37,533 nucleotides of DNA, from the IMG/VR virus record IMGVR_UViG_3300045999_010012, positions 1-37,533 of that record. One strand, given 5' to 3'. A model generated the notes under the pieces. The model was not told where the DNA came from. It worked only from the letters and a program-made list of their open reading frames with translations, and did not search any database. The number at the start of each line of letters is the position of its first letter. Position 1 is the stretch's first letter. The translations under genes were made by a program, and so were the position numbers. Source of the DNA: a virus. This document shows, piece after piece, positions 5,769 through 37,008 of this stretch.

Positions 5769-6179
5769 ATGAAAGACCTTCACTCCAAGGTCGGTGTGCT
5801 GTCGGCCCTCAGCCCCGCGCTGACGACCGCCACGACCGACACCGCCGGCAATGCCATCGACCTGCAGGGCTTCAACAGCCTGGCGTTCGTGGCCCAGACC
5901 GGCGCCGTGACCACCACGACCGCCTCGATCAGCCTGCGCGTTCAGGAAAGCGACACCTCGACGGCCTCGGACTTCTCCGACGTCGCCGCCGCTGACCTGA
6001 TCGGTTCGAACCCGGCCTTCACCGCCGGTGCCACCTCGATCGCCAATGCCGTCCGCAAGGTCGGCTACAACGGTGCCAAACGCTATGCCCGCATCGTGCG
6101 GACGGGCGCGGCCTCGGCCACCGGCAACGTCGGTGCCATCGCCGTCCTCGGCCATCCCATCGACGCCCCGGCCGCCTGA
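5769..6179 (+). CDS. Possible head decoration protein
   Basis: This 136-residue protein has no catalytic motif that I recognise. It is rich in Ala, Thr and Ser with beta-strand-like segments such as 'SLAFVAQTGAVTTTTASISLRVQES' and 'YARIVRTGAA'. Proteins of this type lie directly after the major capsid gene in many HK97-like siphophages and are usually annotated as hypothetical. A role as a shell-binding cement or decoration protein is inferred from position and composition. It ends in a TGATG overlap with the next gene. Confidence 0.5.
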   Translation: MKDLHSKVGVLSALSPALTTATTDTAGNAIDLQGFNSLAFVAQTGAVTTTTASISLRVQESDTSTASDFSDVAAADLIGSNPAFTAGATSIANAVRKVGYNGAKRYARIVRTGAASATGNVGAIAVLGHPIDAPAA

Positions 6180-30546: not shown

Positions 30547-30568
30547 GACCGTTTTTGACGTATCGGTC
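30547..30568. terminator. Weak convergent hairpin
   Basis: A five-base inverted repeat (30547-30551 and 30564-30568) with a T-rich loop lies between the convergent HIRAN and repressor genes. It might help end both transcripts, but the stem is short and the T-tract is in the loop rather than after it. Confidence 0.25.
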
Positions 30569-30953
30569 AGGCAGATTTTAGAAGCTGCTCGATCGCATCG
30601 GCGACTACGGTCTGTCGAGCCTCCGGGGCCTCGCGAAGGGCGTCGATCACGCGGCGTTCGGTCGGGGTCAGTTCGGATAGGCCGCTGGCGTGAGGCGATC
30701 CGCCTCCTGTCATGAGCCATTCCCAGCTGACCCCGTATTTCCGGGCAAACTGGATAGCGCGCTGGTGAGTTAGTTCGGTGTGTTTTGATGAACCCGGCGC
30801 GCGTTCATAGGCGCGATAGGTGTGGGGCTGAATGCCCAGGCTCTCGGCGGCTGCACCGGCATCGGCCTTAATCCCTTTGCTTTCTTGCCATCGCATCCGG
30901 GCCCAGCGCACGCGCTCGTGGGGCTCGGTCAGGGTCTGCCAATCGTTTTCCAT
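30567..30953 (-). CDS. CI-like repressor, short form
   Basis: A 128-residue protein. 'KGIKADAGAAAESLGIQPHTYRAYERAPGSSKHTELTHQRAIQFARKYGVSWEWLMTGGG' is the Xre/CI helix-turn-helix pattern with the terminal 'WLMTG'. The C-terminal part is only ~45 residues and lacks the LexA/CI peptidase with its Ser-Lys dyad, so RecA-triggered self-cleavage is not expected. I chose ATG 30953, after which the conserved part starts. It faces the Cro-like gene across 84 bases filled with half-sites. Confidence 0.85.
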   Translation of the reverse strand: MENDWQTLTEPHERVRWARMRWQESKGIKADAGAAAESLGIQPHTYRAYERAPGSSKHTELTHQRAIQFARKYGVSWEWLMTGGGSPHASGLSELTPTERRVIDALREAPEARQTVVADAIEQLLKSA

Positions 30954-30963
30954 GTGACGAAAC

Positions 30964-31030
30964 GTTACGCGCTTGCCCGTAACCTCGCGTAACTTTGGCC
31001 TTGCAGGACTCGCGTAACCCGTAGTAACGC
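30964..31030. promoter_or_regulatory. Right operator cluster between repressor and Cro
   Basis: Five half-sites of the GTTACGC motif: 30964-30970, 30977-30983 (one mismatch), 30987-30993, 31012-31018 and 31024-31030 (one mismatch). The last two form an inverted repeat with a 5-base spacer, the same layout as the left operator. A TTGCAG box at 31001-31006 and TAACGC at 31025-31030 could be a rightward promoter, with transcripts beginning near the Cro ATG. Repressor and Cro binding is inferred. Confidence 0.7.
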
Positions 31031-31037
31031 GGAGGCC

Positions 31038-31328
31038 ATGAGCCATTCCGACATCATCGCGCGCATTGGCACCGCTGAGATTGCCGCCAAGCTCGACGTT
31101 CCTGCGGCCCACGTCCGCGTCTGGAAGAACAGGCGGATTCCGCGGGCGATGTACGCTGAGCTGATCGCTGCGTTCCCCGAGGTTACGCTTGGTTTGTTGA
31201 AGGCCGGCGAACCCGGTTCGCATGGTCCCGCTCCTGTGGTGGACGACGCCCCGACCATGGCCGCCGGGACCGCCTGTGGCGCCGATAATCGAAACGAGAA
31301 CATCACGCGAACAGGAGAGGCCGCATGA
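31038..31328 (+). CDS. Cro-like regulator
   Basis: A 96-residue protein. 'IIARIGTAEIAAKLDVPAAHVRVWKNRRIPRAMYAELIAAFP' is a compact helix-turn-helix as in Cro/YdaS-type proteins. It is divergent from the repressor and first in the rightward early operon, the standard Cro position. GGAGG ends only two bases before the ATG, close for a ribosome-binding site, so leaderless translation is possible. The C-terminal third is low-complexity. Confidence 0.78.
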   Translation: MSHSDIIARIGTAEIAAKLDVPAAHVRVWKNRRIPRAMYAELIAAFPEVTLGLLKAGEPGSHGPAPVVDDAPTMAAGTACGADNRNENITRTGEAA

Positions 31329-31780
31329 GCCGCCCCGATCCGAGCCGTTGGCTGAAACTCAAGACGCGGCAGTTGATTGCGGCGTGCGGCGGTCTCGATG
31401 AGGCGTCGCGGGCCTGTGCCGAGGGGTGCCGGTCCTATTCCGTGCCGCACCTGAGCCGGTGCCAGGTGGCGGGCGGGCCCGACTTCCTGCCGATCGACAT
31501 CGTGCTGTGTCTCGAGGCCTATTGCGGCGAGGCCATCGTCACGGCGGCCATGGCCGAGGCGCGGCCCAGCGTGGTCGAGGCCGGGGACCTGCGCGACGAA
31601 CTGTCCGACGTGGTCGAGGGCGGGGCCGCCCTGATGACGCGGTATCGCGCGGTGATGGCCGACGGACGGATGGATGCGGTTGAGCGGGGCGAGATGTCGG
31701 CCCTGCTGGACCAGCTGGTCGATGAGGTGCGCGAGGCGCAGGCGGCGTTGACGCCGGGGCCGCAGCTGGTGCGCTCATGA
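31325..31780 (+). CDS. CII/CP76-like regulator
   Basis: A 151-residue protein. 'RQLIAACGGLDEASRACAEGCRSYSVPHLSRCQVAGGPDFLPIDIVLCLEAYCGEAIVTAAMAEA' follows the pattern of CP76/CII-like phage regulators, which carry an atypical HTH and are placed after cro. The C-terminal helices resemble an oligomerisation coiled coil. ATGA overlaps join it to both neighbours. It may activate lysogenic or replication genes. Exact function inferred. Confidence 0.6.
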   Translation: MSRPDPSRWLKLKTRQLIAACGGLDEASRACAEGCRSYSVPHLSRCQVAGGPDFLPIDIVLCLEAYCGEAIVTAAMAEARPSVVEAGDLRDELSDVVEGGAALMTRYRAVMADGRMDAVERGEMSALLDQLVDEVREAQAALTPGPQLVRS

Positions 31781-33489: not shown

Positions 33490-33857
33490 GCGCCGAGATC
33501 CTGCCCTTTCCGGCCCGGCCTGCGCCGGTGCCGCCGGTTCCTTCGCCCGGGGCCTGTGCGGTCGGCGACATGGTGGTGACCTGTATCAATGCCACGGTCG
33601 GCCTGTGGTGCGCGTGGCCGGTGGCCGAGGTCGATGACGACGGGGTGGTGATTGCCGTCTCGGCCCGCGACGGGCGACGGATCGGCGTGGACCGGGTGAA
33701 CTGTCAGCCGACGGTCTATGGCCTGAGGGCGGCCGATCATCAGCCGGCGGCGTTCGCGGCTATGCGGTGGCGGACCTGGCGCGAGCCGGGGGATGCGCTG
33801 CTGGATTTTGCCGAGATCGGGCCGGTTGATGATGCGGGGGCGAGACCTGCGCCATGA
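33486..33857 (+). CDS. Hypothetical protein (123 residues)
   Basis: Starts at GTG 33486 overlapping the previous stop. It has a Pro-rich N-terminus ('FPARPAPVPPVPSPG') and then a beta-rich domain: 'VGDMVVTCINATVGLWCAWPVAEVDDDGVVIAVSARDGRRIGVDRVNCQPTVYGL'. The alternating G-D-M-V and valine-rich strands resemble a small SH3-like or KOW-like barrel, but I cannot name a family. It precedes the methyltransferase with a four-base overlap. Confidence 0.5.
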   Translation: MSAEILPFPARPAPVPPVPSPGACAVGDMVVTCINATVGLWCAWPVAEVDDDGVVIAVSARDGRRIGVDRVNCQPTVYGLRAADHQPAAFAAMRWRTWREPGDALLDFAEIGPVDDAGARPAP

Positions 33858-34597
33858 GCCAACAGATCGTTGCGGCCGCTGTGCCGCCCAGGCGCAAGCC
33901 CGCCAATAGCCGGGCGACCATGGCCGACCGCGTCGAGACGCGCGAGAGCCTGGACTATTTCCCGTCGCCGCCCTGGTGGGGCCGGGCGCTGGGTGACGTG
34001 CTGAGGCGATTGGACCTGCCGACAGACGGCATGATGTGTGAGGAACCGGCGGCCGGTGAGGGGCATCTGGCCCATGGTCTGGCCGATGTGTTCGCCATGG
34101 TGCGGGCGTCGGACATCCACGCCTATCCGCCGCGAGCCAGTGTCCAGGCGATGGGTGCCCAGCCGATTGCGGTGCGGGATTATCTGGATGCCGGGGCGCG
34201 GTCAGGGGTCGCGCCGGACTGGACCGTGACGAATCCGCCTTTTGGGCCGTTGACGACGGCCTTCATCCGGCAAGCGGTGAGTCGGTCGCGGGTCGGGGTG
34301 GCCATGCTGCTGCAGCTGAGGCTGCTGGAAGGGACCGGGCGGCATGCCCTGTTCCGGGAGTGTGGCCTGTACGCGACCGCCGTGATTCCCCGGCGGGGAT
34401 CGGGTTTGCGCAAGGGCCTGTGGCAGCCGGGGCTGTCCACGGCGACGGCCTATGGCTGGTTCATCTTCATCAAGCCGGGCGTGGTCGCGGGCTGGGACGG
34501 GTTCGAGGGCGAGGCACGACAGGTGTGGGTTCAGCCCGATGCCTGCGTGACGTTTAGCCGGGACAGCGACCGGGCGTTTGCGGGGTTGGCGTCATGA
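33854..34597 (+). CDS. DNA adenine-N6 methyltransferase
   Basis: A 247-residue SAM-dependent methylase. Motif I is 'EPAAGEG' (64-70), motif II region 'SDIHAY' (86-91), and the catalytic motif IV is 'NPPF' (127-130), typical of N6-adenine methylases. 'DYFPSPPWWGRAL' (34-46) resembles the SAM-binding N-terminal motif X. There is no restriction endonuclease nearby, so this is an orphan, likely used to modify phage DNA against host restriction or to regulate. The recognition site is unknown. Confidence 0.85.
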   Translation: MSQQIVAAAVPPRRKPANSRATMADRVETRESLDYFPSPPWWGRALGDVLRRLDLPTDGMMCEEPAAGEGHLAHGLADVFAMVRASDIHAYPPRASVQAMGAQPIAVRDYLDAGARSGVAPDWTVTNPPFGPLTTAFIRQAVSRSRVGVAMLLQLRLLEGTGRHALFRECGLYATAVIPRRGSGLRKGLWQPGLSTATAYGWFIFIKPGVVAGWDGFEGEARQVWVQPDACVTFSRDSDRAFAGLAS

Positions 34598-34830: not shown

Positions 34831-35183
34831 GTTTGGCAGAGAACCATTTTGAGGCGGCGCTGAACGTGCTGCGCGAAGAGTTGCGGGCGGTCACGGCGGC
34901 GCGCCGGGCGATCCTGAGCGACCGCGAGCTGGCTGCGACGGACGGGGTGCATCATCAGCAGCTGCTGAAACAGACCATGGCCGAGATGGCCCAGCATGCC
35001 CGGGCGATCAGCCTGTTGGAGCGGGTCGTGTCCGGTGAACTGATGGAGATGGCCCTGCCCGATCCGGTGCCCTCGCCCGCCTTTGTGCAGGCCCCGCGGC
35101 CGGTGCGGCAGACGGCGTTGGTGCGGCGCACGCCCGATGCGGTGGCAGTGGCCCGGCGCGCGCCGCTGGGAGGCTGGGCATGA
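34827..35183 (+). CDS. Coiled-coil hypothetical protein (118 residues)
   Basis: Begins at GTG 34827 overlapping the previous stop. It is mostly helical ('LREELRAVTAARRAILSDRELAATD', 'LLKQTMAEMAQHARAISLLERVV') with heptad-like spacing. The tail is Pro/Arg rich. ATGA overlap with the replication initiator. It may be a small accessory of the initiator, which is inference from coupling only. Confidence 0.5.
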   Translation: MSLAENHFEAALNVLREELRAVTAARRAILSDRELAATDGVHHQQLLKQTMAEMAQHARAISLLERVVSGELMEMALPDPVPSPAFVQAPRPVRQTALVRRTPDAVAVARRAPLGGWA

Positions 35184-36151
35184 GCGATGTGGCGGTGACC
35201 TGGGCCAAGGCGCAGGTCTGTCTGAACAAGGCCGGCAAGCCCGACCGGTCGGCCAAACAGGTGCTGGTGCACATGGCCAGCTATGCCGACGCCTCGGGCG
35301 AGGCGTGGGTGCTGGTCGATGTGCTGAAGATGGAAATGGATGTCGAATATCGGACCGTGGAGCGGGGTCGGGCCGCCCTGGTGGCCGCCGGTCTGCTGAT
35401 CAAGACGGACAAGACCCGGGTGCATCGGGGCAAGCGGATCCCGGTCTATCAGCTGCCGCTCGAACAGGGTCACGCCTCGACCGTTCGGCGGATGATGGCC
35501 GAGCGTGCGGCGATCTCTTCCCCCGTCACCCATGACGGGGGAAGCGATGGGCTTGGGGCGTCACCCATGACGGGGGAGAATTGCACGGATGACGGGGCTA
35601 GGGGCGTCACGGGTGACGCCCAAATAGGGAAGGGAAAAGATAAAGAGCTAACGCTCAGCGCGGGCGTGCGCGAGGACATCGATCTGGCGATCAAGGGATG
35701 GGCGTCGAAGGCGCCCGAACGGGTGGCACCGGTGAAGGTCGAGCGGGCCTGGCGGGATGCGATCGACCGGACGGGGCGCGCATCGGGCCAGTTGCTGGTC
35801 GCCGTGCGGGCTGCGCTGGCGGCGGATCCGGACTTCAAGCGGGGCAAGGCGATGAACCTCGACCGGTGGCTGGATGACGGACGGTTCGAGGGCTGGCTGG
35901 TCGAGGGCGAGGCCGGGGTGGTCGAGCCCAGGGCCGGATGGGTCGGGCCGGAAGAGGTGCGGGCCGCCGTTGCCGGGGTCATGCAGGCCGGGCCGATGGC
36001 CAGCTATTTCGAGCCCGCGGGCTGGGACGGCGAGCGGCGGGCCGTGATGGTCCGAACCCGGTTCGCGGCCGACAAGCTGAGCGAGATGGCCGGGCGGACG
36101 CTGAAGGCCATGGGTGTCTCCATCGAGTGCGAAAAGGGTGTGCGGGCATGA
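35180..36151 (+). CDS. Replication initiator, HTH type
   Basis: A 323-residue protein. Residues 22-75 ('RSAKQVLVHMASYADASGEAWVLVDVLKMEMDVEYRTVERGRAALVAAGLLI') form a winged HTH as in phage replication proteins (HTH_36/O-like). A linker at about 112-155 is disordered and encoded by an array of GTCA/TGAC repeats. The C-terminal domain ('ASYFEPAGWDGERRAVMVRTRFAADKLSEMAGRTLKAMGV') resembles DnaA-N/helicase-contact regions. No helicase gene is present, so host DnaB would be recruited. Confidence 0.75.
   Translation: MSDVAVTWAKAQVCLNKAGKPDRSAKQVLVHMASYADASGEAWVLVDVLKMEMDVEYRTVERGRAALVAAGLLIKTDKTRVHRGKRIPVYQLPLEQGHASTVRRMMAERAAISSPVTHDGGSDGLGASPMTGENCTDDGARGVTGDAQIGKGKDKELTLSAGVREDIDLAIKGWASKAPERVAPVKVERAWRDAIDRTGRASGQLLVAVRAALAADPDFKRGKAMNLDRWLDDGRFEGWLVEGEAGVVEPRAGWVGPEEVRAAVAGVMQAGPMASYFEPAGWDGERRAVMVRTRFAADKLSEMAGRTLKAMGVSIECEKGVRA
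35521..35655 (+). repeat. Iteron-like array, candidate origin of replication
   Basis: Two copies of a 19-base unit, CGTCACCCATGACGGGGGA (35524-35542 and 35559-35577), a half-copy ATGACGGGG (35589-35597), and a 9-base inverted repeat GGGCGTCAC / GTGACGCCC (35602-35621). An AT-richer purine stretch follows (35622-35655). The first unit forms an 8-base inverted repeat by itself. It lies in the linker-coding part of the initiator gene, as in lambda O. Confidence 0.65.
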
Positions 36152-37008
36152 GCGGCAAGATCCAGACGCGGCTGACCCCGGCGCAGGCGGCGCGGATTGC
36201 GGCGGCCGAGGCGCGGCGGATGGAAGCCGTCGCCCTGGCCCAGCCGGTGACGGTCAACGGGCGGTCGCTGACGGCGACGCAGCGGGATCGGCTGATCGAG
36301 GCCGAGCGGCTGGCCGGCGGTGGCCTGTCGGAGCGGAAGAAGGCGGCGGCGCTGGTGCGGTCGGTTGAGGCCGAGCTGACGGCGGCGCGCGAGGCGCGGG
36401 CCGTGGATCGCGGGATCGAGGACACCTTGGCCCGGGCGGCCGGGCGCGGCGAGGTGTTCGAGGTCGAGATCGTGGACATCGGCGAATGGCGGCGGGCCGA
36501 GGACGGCGGCTTGGTGCGGCGGCATGGCCTGCCGGTTCTGGATGTGCAGACGGTGCGCCGGGCCAGCCGGGTCGATGGGCTGGCCAGCCTCTACAAGTCG
36601 GGCTCCATCGGGGACGAACAGAAGCGCATTGGCGATTCGTGCCGCGTCCTGTTCGAACAGGCCAAGCCGCCGATCTCGTCCAGCCAATACGGATCCAGCG
36701 CGGGCGGTGGGTGCGACACCGGGCGGATGCTGGTTGCCGTGGCCGAGGCCGGGAAGGCCGGTGCCATGGTCTGGCAGATCGCAAGGGCTTGTCGGGATGT
36801 GAAGGTGTTCGCGGTGCTGGAAGCCGTCGCCGGGCGCGGGGCCACGATCCGGTCGCTGGGTGACGGTGGCGACCTCAAGGCTCGGAACCTCGACCGCCTA
36901 AAGGCCGGTCTGGCTGCCGCTAAAGGGGTTATCGAACAGGACCGGGAAGGCCGCAAAGCGCGCCTCTCAGACCCTAAATCGAAGGCGCTTGCGAATCAGG
37001 CCCGCTAA
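36148..37008 (+). CDS. Possible late-gene regulator (DUF6456-like)
   Basis: A 286-residue protein. The N-terminal half is helical and charged. From about 141 'RVDGLASLYKSGSIGDEQKRIGDSCRVLFEQA' and from ~214 'DVKVFAVLEAVAGRGATIRSLG' follow the DUF6456-type pattern known from GTA activators (GafA-like) and phage late regulators of alphaproteobacteria. I infer activation of the late operon, as it sits last in the early operon just before HNH, cos and terS. The basic tail ('EGRKARLSDPKSKALANQAR') may bind DNA or RNA polymerase. Confidence 0.5.
   Translation: MSGKIQTRLTPAQAARIAAAEARRMEAVALAQPVTVNGRSLTATQRDRLIEAERLAGGGLSERKKAAALVRSVEAELTAAREARAVDRGIEDTLARAAGRGEVFEVEIVDIGEWRRAEDGGLVRRHGLPVLDVQTVRRASRVDGLASLYKSGSIGDEQKRIGDSCRVLFEQAKPPISSSQYGSSAGGGCDTGRMLVAVAEAGKAGAMVWQIARACRDVKVFAVLEAVAGRGATIRSLGDGGDLKARNLDRLKAGLAAAKGVIEQDREGRKARLSDPKSKALANQAR

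Follow-up and report, generated by a model that had tools for sequence, protein, structure and literature searches.

A candidate lambda-type replication origin in the linker-coding part of a phage initiator gene, and a possible specificity code shared by the two

The initiator gene and its surroundings

The DNA described here (the window) is the entire virus record IMGVR_UViG_3300045999_010012, positions 1 to 37,533, and it encodes terminase, portal, capsid, and tail genes. In the PHROG and ORF annotation of the window, a minus-strand repressor (30567-31223) is followed by a CII-like gene (31325-31780) and then by a replication initiator gene, an order that is lambda-like; an HNH gene is also listed. 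Three genes upstream of the initiator lies a DNA methyltransferase-like gene (33854-34597), for which tblastn gave a match close to the initiator in just 7 of the 19 relatives, with flanks that vary in length. Relatives of the initiator were found in Brevundimonas and Caulobacter genomes, so the host of the phage is probably a member of the Caulobacteraceae.

The initiator gene (35180..36151, plus strand, 323 aa) was defined by its ORF, its PHROG matches, and an AlphaFold2 model. The model has an N-terminal winged helix, a disordered linker, a helical middle domain, and a C-terminal alpha/beta domain. The winged helix is ordered over residues 1-112. Residues 1-125 match the replication initiation (O-like) families of PHROG (E 7e-9 and 1e-8); in the comparison with the proteins of PHROG 1032 and 391, it is the N-terminal 120 residues that match, whereas the C-terminal half falls outside. 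There is also an HTH_36 match, below the curated cut-off, and a search of solved structures with the initiator sequence returned nothing useful. The codons of the recognition helix occupy 35345..35389 on the plus strand (residues 56-70, EYRTVERGRAALVAA; a modeled helix at 57-70 that follows a helix at 46-53).

The disordered linker is encoded by 35516..35653 (plus strand, residues 113-158, pLDDT below 50). This stretch contains the entire candidate origin, which the initial annotation had placed in a low-complexity linker; its interval coincides with the linker almost to the base.

The C-terminal 70-aa domain (35939..36148, plus strand) has an alpha-alpha-beta-beta-alpha-beta topology and a pLDDT of 92. 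A fold search placed several DnaA domain I structures in the top 21 of 350,542 PDB chains, with TM up to 0.61 and none significant; Pfam and PDB sequence searches gave no confirmation of DnaA domain I. The resemblance in topology is suggestive only, and a role of this domain as a helicase-docking module, with direct docking of DnaB, is a possible reading of the model that we offer only as a suggestion. The same domain is common to many otherwise different Caulobacteraceae phage initiators (L042-L058).

The gene after the initiator (36148..37008, plus strand, 286 aa) overlaps it by 4 nt (ATGA) and adjoins it in 17 of the 19 relatives searched. It stands at the position of lambda P. Family searches, PHROG included, gave no confident family for its product, and no P or helicase gene was recognized among the window ORFs scanned.

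A dyad array inside the initiator gene

Within 35524-35618, inside the initiator gene, lie 3 full dyads of the form CGTCA-N4-TGACG and 1 half-dyad. The initial annotation had reported two identical 19-base units, a half unit, and a 9-base dyad; all of these are real, and what it had missed is that each 19-mer is itself a dyad. The identical 19-mers (CGTCACCCATGACGGGGGA) are at 35524-35542 and 35559-35577, and copy 1 can be written CTTCCCCCGTCA-CCCA-TGACGGGGGAAG, with 12-bp arms. The 4 units carry no strand. Dyad 1 (CGTCACCCATGACG) covers 35524..35537, with arms that reach 35517-35544, and dyad 2 (CGTCACCCATGACG) covers 35559..35572. Unit 3, the half unit (CACGGATGACGGGG, 35584..35597), keeps only an intact right half-site (TGACGGGG, at 35590-35597). 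Dyad 4 (GGGCGTCACGGGTGACGCCC, 35602..35621) is 20 bp long with 9-bp arms, has its CGTCA-N4-TGACG core starting at 35605, and aligns with the last dyad of the relatives. The full dyads are centered at 35530.5, 35565.5, and 35611.5, and the half-site unit at 35587.5.

The repeats exceed chance. Not 1 of 1000 synonymous-codon shuffles of the initiator gene reached 3 same-arm dyads within 160 bp (969 gave 1 and 31 gave 2), and the array is the only same-arm dyad cluster of its kind in the 37.5-kb window, as judged by a counter that failed to recover the imperfect iterons of lambda and is thus specific rather than sensitive.

Directly after the last dyad comes an AT- and purine-rich tract (35619..35655, plus strand), a candidate unwinding element. 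Of all 30-bp stretches in the window, the one with the lowest stability starts at 35622, one base past the 20-bp dyad 4, which bears out the earlier description of an AT-richer purine tract directly after the repeats. The signal is short and modest: the tract is not the least stable at 50 or 80 bp, and at 50 bp, 3% of the positions in the window fall below it in stability. In relatives, too, the 30-bp segment of lowest stability in the gene begins at the last dyad or only a few bases away; in rows with a later, spurious unit from the script, the unstable position still matches the last true dyad. GC skew, proposed in the initial annotation as a check, was set aside as an origin test. The cumulative minimum of the window is at 6176, away from the dyads, but the minimum of lambda is at 103, with none at the known ori, and a test that lambda fails with its origin known does not discriminate.

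Conservation and change among relatives

Searches of IMG/VR and genome scans yielded the near-identical L004 and, apart from it, 19 distinct relatives. All 19 distinct relatives carry dyads in the same linker. Linker residues drift among them, while two features are kept, the full-dyad spacing and the unstable tract that follows the last dyad; persistence of the repeats despite linker drift was a check proposed in the initial annotation. The full-dyad spacing of the window, 35 and 46 bp, recurs in L006, L007, L010, L011, L017, and others, and in the relatives inspected, as in the window, the left arm of the unit that lies between dyads 2 and 4 is degenerate. Beyond these, tblastn and blastn against named phages gave no match, and a class-wide search of 385 genomes gave a match only in the Brevundimonas genome already known.

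The sequence of the half-sites does change. Nearly all relatives use the form GGGG-TGA-CAC-NN-GTG-TCA-CCCC, and most have seven half-sites, here of the TGA type; the triplet is CGA in 7 half-sites of L040 and CGT in 7 of the window, the smaller side counts of other triplets in the script arising from overlapping matches. Both arms change symmetrically: TGA (relatives), CGA (L040), and CGT (window). The most distant relative, L033, differs in the outer arm (CCCCTGACA) and has fewer matching half-sites.

The protein differs as well. Residue 61 is Q in TGA-type relatives (Y in L033) and E in both L040 and the window; the recognition helix of the window has Y at 57, and its residues 57, 61, and 64 differ from those of TGA-type relatives. 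This suggests that the recognition helix and its sites change together.

A cassette swap in L040

One relative has exchanged the helix and most of the sites as a unit. The C-terminal half of the L040 initiator is 99% identical to that of L008, but in the binding domain the identity of L040 is 77% with the window and 62% with L008; the trees of the 2 halves disagree in the same way. At the DNA level, identity between L040 and L014 is 88-100% from about -900 to -420 and 92-100% from about +510, but falls to 42-75% across the binding domain and first dyads; an unaligned stretch directly precedes the gene. In L040, the third unit is still L014-like. The DNA-binding domain and most of the dyads thus moved jointly onto a foreign C-terminal half.

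Residue 61 and the half-site

An association between residue 61 and the half-site was first seen in the family and was then tested on fresh data from DNA-only scans. Three such scans for paired dyads (TGA, CGA, and CGT classes) gave 150 loci with an ORF spanning the array, and in 95 of these the ORF has a winged helix alignable to the family; the set is largely independent and includes the original family members as a minority. Across the 71 distinct helices measured, the winged helix always precedes the array, and GC is lower downstream of the array than upstream in 55 (p = 7e-9).

Acidic residues at position 61 are associated with the CGT type. With clusters at 70% identity, which are not wholly independent lineages, the counts of clusters with an acidic residue are 14 of 18 for the CGT type and 0 of 36 for the TGA type (p = 9e-10, for one of about seven helix positions examined); with clusters at 40% identity they are 8 of 12 and 0 of 18 (p = 8e-5). 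The classes quoted are plain query classes, because automatic re-registration put 5 zero-score arrays in TGA by default. The CGT-type query also caught a Q61 clade (helix ERSVQRDL) with dyads that fit a TGA register better. CGA-type clusters are mixed, with an acidic residue in 2 of 7, and L040 and L106 pair Glu with CGA. Exceptions to the rule are L255 and L236, with Q, and L216, with L. Residue 58 differs too, being R in all TGA clusters and mixed in CGT. The association with residue 61 recurs in widely divergent phage initiators.

Acidic side chains tend toward contacts with cytosine and glutamine toward adenine. We lean toward the view that initiator and origin make up a specificity cassette within one gene, with a code that can be read. 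Residue 61 would recognize the outer base pair in the core of the half-site, with Gln or some other non-acidic residue for TGA, Asp or Glu for CGT, and, in L040 and L106, Glu for CGA. This putative code is the new and testable part of the analysis; in the freely accessible literature searched, we found no report on the origins of these phages or on the residue-61 association.

L074, L076, and L075 are phage initiator-like genes, not close to that of the window, whose linkers contain CGTCA-N4-TGACG arrays; Asp stands at the residue-61 position in L074 and L076. A separate clade of initiator-like proteins (L086, L091, L099-L101, and L103-L105) has GCGACA...TGTCGC arrays and the helix KSVDTVWRCL; with W or S at residue 61, this clade falls outside the simple code.

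A probable lambda-type origin and its alternatives

We interpret the segment as a phage replication origin that lies where the phage's own initiator gene encodes the linker, with a layout of the lambda type, and put the probability of this reading at about 0.88. Three elements of such a layout, as drawn from 2 papers (PMC6022878 and PMC7466680) and the lambda record, are found here: repeats in the linker-coding part of the initiator gene itself, iterons with dyad symmetry, and an easily melted AT-rich tract beside them. Binding of the initiator to the dyads, and origin activity with it, are what we infer from sequence; binding draws support from the parallel change of helix and half-site, both among relatives and in largely independent phages, and from the cassette swap.

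Other roles for the dyads are conceivable. Dyads bound by a winged helix are also the usual arrangement of repressor and operator, and a fold search with the initiator yields mainly transcription regulators; the array could serve the winged helix-turn-helix protein, or another regulator, in repressing transcription of its own operon, with no origin involved. We consider this improbable, given that the array is set some 350 bp into the gene and adjoins the 30-bp stability minimum of the window, in an order that is conserved, and that the PHROG matches are to replication initiators; autoregulation and origin function could also coexist. A centromere-like partition site with a winged-helix adaptor is called to mind by the centromere binders AspA and TubR, which are among the weak fold matches. 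No ParA- or TubZ-like partner was seen among the ORFs scanned, however, and the initiator matches and the unstable tract directly adjoining the array make this role more doubtful still than that of hairpins in the mRNA.

Such hairpins, regulating translation or transcript decay, would account for a segment that folds better than its shuffles (z = -5.3), and compensatory changes in the arms suit RNA as well as DNA. Yet mismatches in the arms of 33 distinct units are A.C (10), other (15), and G.U in only 6, where RNA pairing would favor otherwise, and we rejected the hairpin reading on this pattern. Hairpins also do not need one recognition sequence kept across the units of each phage, let alone one that tracks the helix of the protein, and we hold this explanation to be very unlikely. 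Least credible of all is selection on the repeats as peptide in a repetitive linker. Some units in relatives do read in one frame (RGDTGVTQIGK-like), but in the window dyads 1 and 4 share a reading frame and dyad 2 uses another, so the same DNA is read as VTHDGG and SPMTGE and it is DNA, not peptide, that is repeated; the last unit reads RGVTGDAQIGK rather than RGDTGVTQIGK, the linker is predicted to be disordered, and the synonymous shuffles, which never kept the dyads, led us to reject this reading.

The lambda-type origin can be set beside known systems. As in the window, the lambda ori lies inside the initiator gene (gene O; J02459, iterons 39034-39118) (PMC6022878). Both have about 4 dyad iterons in the linker-coding part, an AT-rich purine tract on the 3' side, a similar gene order upstream of the initiator, and a 4-nt overlap between the initiator and the next gene (O/P in lambda). 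The iteron sequence differs, the 3.5 dyads of the window are spaced 35, 22, and 24 bp as against 4 at 20-24 bp, and the tract is weaker than that of lambda because the genome is GC-rich. A comparison with lambda O by hhalign detected no homology (E 0.61, probability 0.1), and resemblance to O-like PHROG families is confined to the winged-helix part. The earlier term "lambda-like" holds for the layout, and a P gene was not recognized among the ORFs scanned; the segment would work like the lambda origin, and we do not file it in the lambda O/P family. The phages P27 and 933W have lambdoid origins with altered iteron number and a nearly fixed iteron sequence (PMC7466680). Iterons lie mid-gene there (mid-O) and in the window family, and in both iteron changes alter the linker too; in P27 and 933W, however, it is number that varies, while in the window family spacing is fixed and the half-site changes in all dyads.

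A proposed mechanism and its implications

In the mechanism we propose, the N-terminal winged helix would bind each palindromic dyad as a homodimer, with seven half-sites in all, and the assembled initiators would strain the adjoining AT- and purine-rich tract. The strained tract would then open and take in the replicative helicase of the host, perhaps by way of the initiator's C-terminal domain. Homodimer stoichiometry, tract unwinding, and helicase loading are likewise inferred. Because binding domain and sites adjoin within one gene, they could be inherited and swapped as one specificity cassette, changing in step.

This arrangement bears on an old question: how an origin can alter its sequence and yet keep its initiator. 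Here both lie side by side in one gene, and the window phage, L040, and the relatives offer 3 states of one array (CGT, CGA, and TGA, respectively) and one natural cassette swap. If the code is true, compatibility between initiator and origin would be predictable from sequence, and a few point mutants and footprints would test it. A simple dyad scan finds candidate origins in many unannotated phages.

Distant initiator-like genes of the Caulobacteraceae (L045, L043, L042, and L046) have different linker dyads of their own, for example TTCACCCGACAG...CTGTCGGGTGAA, which is repeated in L045.
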